37,083 nt of DNA from Thiomargarita sp. (lineage in GTDB: Bacteria; Pseudomonadota; Gammaproteobacteria; Beggiatoales; Beggiatoaceae). The notes below the pieces were generated by a model that saw only the letters and a program-made list of their open reading frames with translations, did not search any database and was not told the DNA's origin. Made by a program: the position numbers and the translations under genes. Within the stretch, counting starts at the first letter, position 1; each line of letters starts with the position of its first letter. Below are positions 6,595-37,083 of this stretch, in pieces. The stretch is taken from assembly GCA_020720115.1 (NCBI GenBank), contig DYPD01000032.1, positions 1 to 37,083 on the forward strand, read 5' to 3'.

Positions 6595-6687
6595 TATAGT
6601 AGGATTACTCAATAATTATATTTTTATAATTATTAAGCATATGATTTTATATATCTTTTATTTTAAAGATTCAGTAATCCGACTATA
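6595..6687 (+). mobile_element. 93-bp MITE, copy 1 (IS630/TA type)
   Basis: Non-coding element with terminal inverted repeats TATAGTAGGATTACT (6595-6609) and AGTAATCCGACTATA (6673-6687), including the TA target bases at each end. It has an internal perfect hairpin: AATAATTATA (6611-6620), TTTT loop, TATAATTATT (6625-6634). It differs at only 2 of 93 positions from the inverted copy at 36296-36388 and is identical over 53 bp to the copy cut by the window end. It directly abuts the end of the IS630 remnant, sharing TATA. Confidence 0.92.
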
Positions 6688-7031
6688 TAGTGAAATTCCT
6701 ATAAATTTGTTATATTTATTTCAAATACTTCATTGAAAACAAGCTTTAATTTATCTTCAATTGACAAGTAGGTGTTCTGGCATTTTCTAATAGGCTGTTT
6801 CATCACTGCCCAATAATTTTCAATTTTATTTAGTTCTGGTGAATAAGGCGGCAAATAAAGTACTTCACACTCTTTTTGCTTTAGATTCGCTGAGTTCCTT
6901 TATTTTCTTACCGTTTAGAACGGCATTTACAACCCGTTTTCTAAACTCTGCTGAGTAAGCCACAATGACCTCCTTTATAAATGAAAAATATATATGATAA
7001 TTATAAACATTTTTTAGGTAATCTTACTATA
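6686..7031 (-). mobile_element. IS630-family insertion sequence, internally deleted (346 bp)
   Basis: A minus-strand deletion derivative. The transposase-start end reads TATAGTAAGATTACC inward from 7031 and the far end TATAGTGAAATTCC inward from 6686; these are imperfect inverted repeats of each other. The first closely matches the MITE ends (13 of 15 positions). Between them lie the beginning and end of an IS630-type transposase joined by a large deletion. A full IS630 is about 1.1 kb, so roughly two thirds is missing. TA flanks are consistent with IS630/Tc1-mariner target choice. Confidence 0.85.
6699..6963 (-). pseudogene. IS630 transposase remnant (N- and C-terminal pieces, frameshifted junction)
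   Basis: The 5' piece starts with GTG at 6963 behind a strong GGAGG and encodes MAYSAEFRKRVVNAVLNGKK and so on, the helix-turn-helix start of IS630-type transposases. It terminates at 6865 after 32 codons. The 3' piece, in another frame, reads CEVLYLPPYSPELNKIENYW from 6869 and ends with TAG at 6699-6701. YLPPYSPELNKIE is the diagnostic C-terminal DDE segment, with the catalytic Glu in KIE. The two pieces meet around 6865-6895, so the central DDE region is deleted and the junction is out of frame. No active enzyme can be made. Confidence 0.88.
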
Positions 7032-16446: not shown

Positions 16447-16626
16447 TTGGCGTTGCCCATACATTGGGGGCAAAAAGATGCTTGAACCTATTCTTATACG
16501 CCTGGGGACGGAGAAATTTCTTGGTGTGCATACCCGCTAGACGGGGAGTCTAATAAGAAATTCAGATGTTCCCACTTGAGCTTCCGGTTCAAGGCGAGTA
16601 GTTTCTGGTGCATGGGTGACGCCCTT
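16447..16626 (+). ncRNA. ssrS: 6S RNA (SsrS)
   Basis: The segment between zapA and fau is the conserved site of 6S RNA, which mimics an open promoter and sequesters sigma70 RNA polymerase in stationary phase. A terminal stem forms between GGCGTTGCCCATACA (from 16449) and TGCATGGGTGACGCC (ending 16623), with G-U pairs and one mismatch. Inner pairings include AATTTCTT with AAGAAATT, CCCGC with a G-rich partner (GACGGGG), and the TTGAGCTTCCGGTTCAA hairpin like the TTGAACCAAGGGTTCAA region of E. coli 6S. Length about 180 nt fits. The exact ends are estimated. The 3' end lies about 25 bp before the fau start. Confidence 0.82.
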
Positions 16627-34926: not shown

Positions 34927-35229
34927 TATAGTCTGATTACTGGATTTTTATACTAAAAATATATCAAATCATATACTTAGGACTTTCGCTGTCAACTTCC
35001 TAACCTATTGATGTACAAAAGAGGGTAGTGGTGCAATAAGAATGTTTTTGTCACGATAGAACGCGGCTTCCAAGCATAAATATCATCCTGTATGCACCAC
35101 TACCCAAAAGAGTATGTTTTTGCGCTGCACAATAGTGTTTCTTTGTAAATCAATAAGTTAAATTCTAGACTGCGAAAGTCCTAATACTTAATATCTATGA
35201 AAACATAATTATTGAGTAATCCTACTATA
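34927..35229 (-). mobile_element. MITE copy 4, diverged and split by a second element
   Basis: The outer ends TATAGTCTGATTACT (34927-34941) and AGTAATCCTACTATA (35215-35229) are the MITE inverted repeats. Removing 34978-35183 and one ATACT copy leaves a 92-bp element aligned along its length to the 93-bp copies, but more diverged, so it is the oldest copy in the window. It lies in the same orientation as the copy at 36296-36388. Confidence 0.88.
34978..35183. mobile_element. 206-bp palindromic element nested in MITE copy 4
   Basis: Terminal inverted repeats TAGGACTTTCGCTGTC (left) and GACTGCGAAAGTCCTA (right) match at 15 of 16 positions. The flanks are the direct repeat ATACT (34973-34977 and 35184-35188), a 5-bp target duplication that occurs once at the same place in the intact MITE. 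There is an internal perfect 13-bp inverted repeat GGGTAGTGGTGCA (35023-35035) and TGCACCACTACCC (35093-35105). It contains no credible ORF, so it is non-autonomous. No transposase with these ends is present here, and I cannot assign the IS family. Confidence 0.88.
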
Positions 35230-35476: not shown

Positions 35477-37030
35477 ATGTTGAGTTTAACCAGATTATAC
35501 CTCTACATACTATTTGCTCTGTTTTTTGCCCCGTCATAGTTGAGCGCCCAAACCAGCGAGTCACAGGCGGTTGTATTTGTTTTAGATAGATCAGGTTCTA
35601 CATTGCAGAGTGACCCAAACGGGCTACAGGGGGTTGCGGCTAGTCTGATGCTGGACGCATTAGAATTAGTCGCAACGGATTTGGAGGTAGGACTGATTTA
35701 CTTTGAAACCGGAGTGTCCACTGAAAATGGTGGCACTTTGATGAGTAAAGAAGCAGCACGGGAAAAATTGAAAAAACTGCCACCTGCCAACGGTCTCACA
35801 AATATGGAACCCGCCCTAGAGCAAGCACTGACACTTGTCAGTCAAGCGCAATCCGTGCAGAAAAAGATTGTGTTGATTACTGGCGGTATCCCACAAACTC
35901 AACAAAATCGGGCTGATAGCCAACAAATCACCTCAATTCCTCAAGGATTTACTCAGAAAGCTAAGGCAGCCGGCATTAAGGTGTTTGTGCTCGGGTTTTC
36001 AGGCAACACCGATGAGGCTTTTTTAAGGCAGGTGGCGACCGAAGAAAAATATGCGCTTACTGCTGCCAATACCATGGAATTGCTGAAAAGTGCAAAGAAA
36101 TTATTTTTTAACTCGGATAATTTGATTGAAATTAAATCGGCGGAAATCCTGTCAAATCAGGATACGTTTGAATTTGAAATGCCAGACGGCCTAGATCGGG
36201 CAAGGGTTACAGTTTTATTTGAGAACCAGCAGCGCTATGTAGACGGCGATATTGAAGTTAGTATCCAAAGGCAAAATGCTACGGATTGCGAATTTTATAG
36301 TCGGATTACTGAATCTTTAAAATAAAAGACATATAAAATCATATGCTTAATAATTATAAAAATATAATTATTGAGTAATCCTGCTATACTATGGGGATAA
36401 CAAAGACCCAAACTTTGCCGGAAATCCGATTGTCGGTTGCAGCAGTTTTATTGAGTCACCGAGCAAAGGCGCTTACAACATAAAAATCACGGTAAATAAC
36501 ACTGGACCCGAACATGGGGGAGCAATTGTATTTATTGAAGGCCGTTCTAACTTAAAAACAAAAATAGAGTTTCTTCCAGCCAAAAAAGATTTTTATGAGT
36601 TTGAAGAAGAGGTAACTATACAAGCAACGGTACATGACCCCGCGAATAAATCTATACCGGCAAGGTTCAGCGGTAAAATAATTGCAACTGACGGATCATC
36701 CGCTACAGTTTCTTTTGGCGCTGACGGTAAAGGCTCTTTTAAACCACTAGCAATAGCTGGTAAGCAAAAAATTGAAATAAACGCGAACGTAGATACACTT
36801 CCATTCTTACCATCGTTACAGATTGAGGATATTTATCAAGTGCAGCCAGCGGTACCGTGCGAACTAAAGCTAGGAAAAAATTCACAAGCACTAAAATTTA
36901 CCCTTTCACCGGAATCATCTGATGCTAAAAAGGAAAATACCTTTAAGCTGTTGTTGACAGCACAAGATACAGGCGAACCTTGCAAAAAAACTCAGGGGAA
37001 CTATGGGTAGACTGGAATAAATCTCCGACT
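35477..37030 (+). pseudogene. Broken gene for a secreted von Willebrand factor A-domain protein
   Basis: The original gene starts at ATG 35477 with AAGG 9 nt upstream. Its signal peptide MLSLTRLYLYILFALFFAPS is followed by an in-frame TAG (codon 21, 35537-35539), then LSAQTSESQAVVFVLDRSGS with the MIDAS DxSxS motif. Later MIDAS elements are NGLTNMEPALEQAL and ITGGIPQ, with Gly where Asp is usual. At codon 274 (36296) a MITE interrupts it. Deleting 36298-36388 restores frame as ...CEF-YYGDNKDPNFAGNP..., continuing about 200 codons of beta-rich sequence. A stop at 37008 comes just after a run of seven A (36984-36990); one more A would give KKNSGELWVDWNKSPTY up to the next MITE at 37031. Three or four lesions make loss of function nearly certain. 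Confidence 0.9.
36296..36388 (-). mobile_element. 93-bp MITE, copy 2, inserted in the vWA gene
   Basis: Reverse complement of copy 1 with two mismatches. It begins TATAGTCGGATTACT and ends AGTAATCCTGCTATA. The insertion duplicated TA: the host codon TAC (Tyr) is split into TA at 36296-36297 and C at 36389. The high identity to copy 1 indicates recent movement. Confidence 0.95.
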
Positions 37031-37083
37031 TATAGTAGGATTACTCAATAATTATATTTTTATAATTATTAAGCATATGATTT
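37031..37083 (+). mobile_element. MITE, copy 3, cut by the window end
   Basis: The first 53 bp of the element (TATAGTAGGATTACTCAATA and onward) are identical to copy 1, in the same orientation. It follows CCGACT of the vWA reading frame at a TA. The other end and the rest of the gene lie beyond the window. Confidence 0.92.

Follow-up and report, generated by a model that had tools for sequence, protein, structure and literature searches.

Among the closest described systems, RUP of Streptococcus pneumoniae resembles the element considered here in its small size (107 bp), its terminal inverted repeats, its TA-containing targets and its 108 copies (PMC2229807). In the passages cited, RUP is often found at IS elements, and its movement is tentatively attributed to a resident IS630 element whose ends resemble its own; a likely helper is named for it, which sets it apart, and the likeness noted between the two elements is one of description (PMC2229807). 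A second comparison is offered by a MITE of Candidatus Thiomargarita nelsonii Bud S10, longer copies of which carry TATAG on both sides and are hairpin-forming, and which was likened by its authors to IS630-derived MITEs and Correia elements (PMC4853749). Unlike the present copies, however, it lies in a group I intron of dsrA, its hairpin part occurs on more than 100 contigs, mostly in intergenic positions, and its parent IS is not named in the sections cited, where the likeness is again one of description (PMC4853749). Another MITE family splits the hydrogenase gene hupL in Ca. Thiomargarita nelsonii (PMC4853749). Finally, the Correia (NEMIS) elements of Neisseria are similar in having a length of ~107 or 155 bp, terminal inverted repeats, TA ends and TA as the commonest duplication, but they differ in their 24-bp terminal inverted repeat, their sizes and their host, the comparison being by description in the parts of the sources cited (PMC2229807, PMC9330008). 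A literature search of partial coverage returned no paper recognisably concerned with the exact 93-bp element.

The window analysed here comprises 37,083 nt and is the whole of one contig (DYPD01000032.1; G000:C48) of a 3.86-Mb Thiomargarita genome (GCA_020720115.1; G000), position 37083 being the contig end. The unit at 36296-36388 is very probably a non-autonomous DNA transposon (MITE) of the IS630/Tc1-mariner type. It is short, carries no transposase gene, has many near-identical copies and consists of TA + 89 bp + TA, reading TATAG...CTATA, with imperfect terminal inverted repeats in which 17 of the first 19 bases are identical. The terminal sequence of Correia elements appears to resemble this TATAG end. 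RUP is described as intergenic, and its host belongs to another phylum than Thiomargarita. The 93-bp MITE is an ordinary, known kind of element, and the copy inside fabD is the one surprise. The features at the right end of the window are as follows:

35477-35539, plus strand: start codon and signal-peptide-like part of a vWA gene, ending at the in-frame TAG 35537-35539
35540-36295, plus strand: vWA gene upstream of the MITE, 252 codons, with a VWA domain (PF00092, E 1.4e-15)
36296-36388, plus strand: complete MITE copy, 93 bp including both target TAs (36296-36297 and 36387-36388)
36389-37007, plus strand: continuation of the vWA gene beyond the MITE, about 206 codons up to TAG 37008-37010
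37031-37083, minus strand: second MITE copy in inverted orientation, truncated by the contig end after its first 53 bp

Removal of 91 bp (36298-36388) joins TGC GAA TTT TAC TAT GGG in frame, exactly as the original prediction held, and produces a 459-codon frame from 35540. The gain amounts to 207 codons, ending at TAG 37008-37010, in good agreement with the roughly 200 codons that had been expected to reopen. When deletions of 86-96 bp from 36298 were compared, a long frame was obtained only with 91 bp (459 codons) and 94 bp (458 codons); with each of the other nine lengths the frame stopped at codon 252-285. The vWA frame contains two TAG codons independently of the MITE, one (35537-35539) between the signal-peptide-like start and the vWA domain and the other at 37008-37010. 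Removal of the MITE therefore reopens a stretch but gives no intact gene, and the MITE as sole cause of the damage is not supported. The part downstream of the MITE had only an Ig-like match, below the cut-off. A homologue without the insertion was found in genome G279, where an open frame encodes a vWA protein of 906 aa that aligns to joined residues 2-387 (28% identity, E 1e-43). The alignment shows no insert at the residue 252 junction, the nearest gap being of two residues and about ten residues downstream, so this comparison, which had been set beforehand, indicates that the 93 bp are not an ancestral part of the gene. Because the G279 protein aligns through the first TAG (35537-35539) into its own start, that codon looks like a lesion. 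Judging from the length of the G279 protein, much of the vWA gene may lie beyond the contig end. At E 1e-15 or better, only G279 besides G000 itself matched the joined protein among 369 genomes of the class, and none of the seven weak vWA matches among relatives crosses the junction. Since the MITE shifts the frame (91 = 1 mod 3) and two further TAG codons are present, we conclude that this copy sits in a decaying gene.

The original prediction also placed two near-identical inverted copies, 642 bp apart, within one gene, bracketing coding sequence. The inverted arrangement and the spacing stand, with 52 of 53 bases complementary (98%) between 36296-36388 and 37031-37083 and 642 bp between them. 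The common location is not supported, since the second copy begins 20 bp beyond the in-frame TAG 37008-37010, cannot be placed within the same open vWA frame and is a contig-end stump. Assemblies break at long repeats, and the contig stops 53 bp into this copy, as it might if the copies at contig ends, including 37031-37083, were the ends of a longer, autonomous element with MITE-like ends. We regard this as unlikely: counted from the left end the stumps extend for up to 55 bp (L132) and from the right end for up to 53 bp (the window), which sums to more than 93 bp. The two therefore overlap in their central bases, as expected of the 93-bp element; a longer element would need those central bases repeated at both ends.

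Genome-wide, a 20-nt pattern of the MITE end (two mismatches or fewer) gave 150 matches in G000, and the same pattern written backward as a control gave none. Complete copies, defined by both ends matching with at most two mismatches each and lying 61-139 bp apart, number at least 51 distinct cases, every one of them exactly 93 bp long and reading TATAG...CTATA. Among the matches listed, 34 of the 51 complete copies are letter-identical, eight others have one common base change, and all 51 are flanked by TA on both sides. The proposed check by copy number and flanks thus came out in favour of the element. At contig ends, at least nine additional copies are present as stumps of 50-55 bp. The abundance of near-identical copies suggests recent transposition, and we infer that the burst was recent. 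Older, diverged copies also occur, at least two in number, namely L101 and a split copy in the window (34927-35229):

34927-34979, plus strand: left part of the older diverged MITE copy, which is interrupted by nested inserts
35184-35229, plus strand: right part of the same copy (partner of 34927-34979)

Three elements are nested in 34927-35229. An element with GGACTTTCGC ends interrupts the old MITE, and an element with GGGTAGTGGTGC ends has in turn entered the GGACTTTCGC-ended one, of which uninterrupted copies are present in contigs C132 and C90.

A unit of this kind could conceivably be a domesticated regulatory or RNA feature held by selection rather than a mobile element, and the predicted RNA fold is indeed good (-24.1 kcal/mol, z -6.3), with a strong internal hairpin that 0 of 300 shuffles equalled. 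Nevertheless, most copies are letter-identical at unrelated sites and some split conserved genes, the end pattern occurs in just two of 42 genomes of the family, the second being only a contig-end stump, and the older copy L101 lacks the inner hairpins in its predicted fold. These observations make selection for an RNA function very improbable and favour the transposon.

The borders of the MITE were examined in the 51 complete copies among the matches listed, 42 of which have sufficient flank, by joining the flanks under three border choices. When the frame had to stay open for 100 codons or more on either side, 10 copies gave a long frame with one TA kept, two with none kept and one with TATA kept, as compared to control values (200 flank re-pairings) averaging 1.9 and never exceeding 6. 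The respective counts were 12, 2 and 1 at 80 codons (control mean 2.5, maximum 9) and 14, 2 and 2 at 60 codons (control mean 3.4, maximum 10). One copy, L042 (G000:C35:2498-2590), is alone in yielding a long frame with each of the two rival borders but not with the TA border, and the copy L013 has a long frame under more than one border choice. The one-TA border performed best in this test, which, together with the uniform length of at least 51 complete copies, bears out the predicted unit of 93 bp including both TAs.

An empty site is provided by fabD of the congener G001. When compared with the joined fabD of G000, its alignment is gap-free at the join and continues beyond the gene end, corresponding to a net gain of 91 bp in G000 and hence to a 2-bp duplication. 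At the position of the TA in the joined site G001 reads CG, so the alignment establishes how long the duplication is, and TA as the target is deduced from the copies; TA flanks in 51 of 51 listed complete copies and the fit of the empty site to 2 bp agree with the predicted TA target duplication. Removal of the MITE from an ammonium transporter gene yields a single unbroken PF00909 match (E 1.7e-111), and joined FabD aligns to the solved FabD structure 6smd without a gap. In-frame joining and the empty site thereby define the element borders to the base, so that annotation has a well-defined unit to refer to. With 185 contigs, the assembly is fragmented, and it breaks at the MITE repeat and at IS630, which raises the question of whether the in-gene copies are chimeric joins at the repeat. 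A chimera, however, would not unite the two halves of one gene in frame with a precise TA duplication; here both the ammonium transporter and FabD are restored to full domains when their halves are joined, and the joined fabD remains alignable to G001 beyond the end of the gene. An assembly artefact is accordingly extremely improbable, and insertion by transposition is the reading we retain.

The copy in fabD (L127, G000:C35:19658-19750) splits the gene directly after the conserved PSHC motif, and the occupied frame continues into unrelated residues. This motif presumably holds the catalytic histidine of FabD. The gene is whole in G001 (78% protein identity), and a FabD match was present in all 36 genomes searched. 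fabD is normally an essential gene, and its copy of the MITE presents a concrete case of a bacterium coping with a transposon in such a gene. A literature search on miniature elements in fabD as an essential gene turned up one paper, on meningococcus. Weaker FabD-like matches remain in G000, in frames of 821 aa and 2143 aa (37% identity each) and of 356 aa (27%), and any of the three might stand in for FabD, so that its function need not be lost. We consider it very unlikely that the cell lives with the frameshifting insert itself, whether through mixed chromosomes, an insert that is removed or skipped, or a split enzyme. One possibility of this sort is that each cell has many non-identical chromosome copies, with intact and split fabD together. 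Mixed genome copies have reportedly been found in a study of the giant sulfur bacterium Achromatium, an analogy by which mixed chromosomes become conceivable here, although it provides no evidence on G000 itself. Alternatively, removal or skipping of the insert could occur at expression, assisted by its inverted repeats folding the ends together, and a third possibility is that the two FabD pieces act as a split enzyme. Ribosome hopping over the insert was rejected for fabD, whose left-edge codon, TGT, has no counterpart at the right edge. In the vWA gene a ribosome could formally hop from TAT to TAC, both of which encode tyrosine, but a pair of this kind arises by chance about half the time when TA fills the first two codon positions; as a general mechanism, hopping is not supported by the edge codons of the two genes.

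Remains of an IS630-family element are found in the same window, where a complete MITE copy abuts an IS630 relic:

6595-6687, minus strand: complete MITE copy; one TA is common to it and the border of the IS630 relic
6686-7031, minus strand: internally deleted IS630-family element, 346 bp, with ends TATAGTAAGATTACC and TATAGTGAAATTCC

In the relic, the final part of a transposase is retained (DDE_3, E 9.8e-10), as apparently is its first part (HTH, E 0.024, below the cut-off). The relic accounts for the one DDE_3 match in the whole G000 assembly, in which no intact transposase was found. A search of G000 with the relic, in which 40 of 54 candidates were scored, gave 36 matches, and 27 of these are 50-55-bp stumps lying exactly at contig ends (L055-L081), as would be expected if a multi-copy IS630 had been collapsed by the assembler. 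An intact IS630 is therefore probably present in the cell and absent from the assembly, and the data suggest that many G000 contig ends come from collapsed IS630 and MITE copies. The ends of the MITE agree with those of the resident IS630 at 11-12 of the first 15 bases and with those of the relic at 11-13. Over the first 16 bases, 10-11 agree in the comparisons that are in register, a level equalled by 7-70 of 20000 shuffles. Beyond about 15 bases, six of eight local alignments were matched by 14-82% of shuffles, and for the other two, both involving the right end of the MITE, 12 and 32 of 1000 shuffles were as good.

The resident IS630 is the putative helper of the MITE. An IS630-family transposase supplied in trans would recognise the terminal inverted repeats, cut the MITE out and insert it at a TA, which would be duplicated in the process. 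Movement would thus be by cut-and-paste, as described for ISY100, an IS630-family element that inserts into TA and duplicates it according to the passages cited (PMC2170065). A parent of the MITE was also sought among 30 DDE_3 loci drawn from matches in 37 of 42 genomes of the family; TATAG...ATT motifs on both strands were present only at L190, and by eye these are not MITE-parent ends. In 35 other genomes, with no more than 20 candidates scored in each, a search with the relic DNA yielded three short hits and no long match. The congener G001 has 26 DDE_3 matches and no match to MITE or relic DNA, so that parentage is not traceable there.

With one mismatch or fewer allowed, the end pattern occurs in two of 42 genomes of the family, G000 and G005, the latter at one contig end. 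This locus (L032, G005:C102:19780-19834) carries 55 bp of the MITE at 98% identity in another genus, on a MAG contig (DYPE01000047.1) labelled SulCav_GS09_5. The stump may reflect transfer, or the contig may have been binned to the wrong genome. When the MITE DNA itself was searched, nine of 57 genomes gave a match with an E value of 0.001 or less, G000 and G005 among them. The other seven gave partial matches (27-48 bp, E 3e-8 to 9e-4) that were taken as chance in AT-rich DNA, and the family members among them had no end-pattern match. In public collections, in scans that may omit the window's genome, the end pattern was found in no stretch of viral_contigs and in four stretches of genome_contigs (L200-L203). 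One of these (L202) is the G005:C102 contig end again, the length of 19834 being shared, and L203, which lies inside a permease-like reading frame, was taken as chance. The other two, L200 and L201, are from Aquimarina and have a single end each. With Rfam at gathering scores, no intron was found in the window and the only match was to 6S RNA, the gene for which lies at 16450-16623 (RF00013, 50.2 bits).
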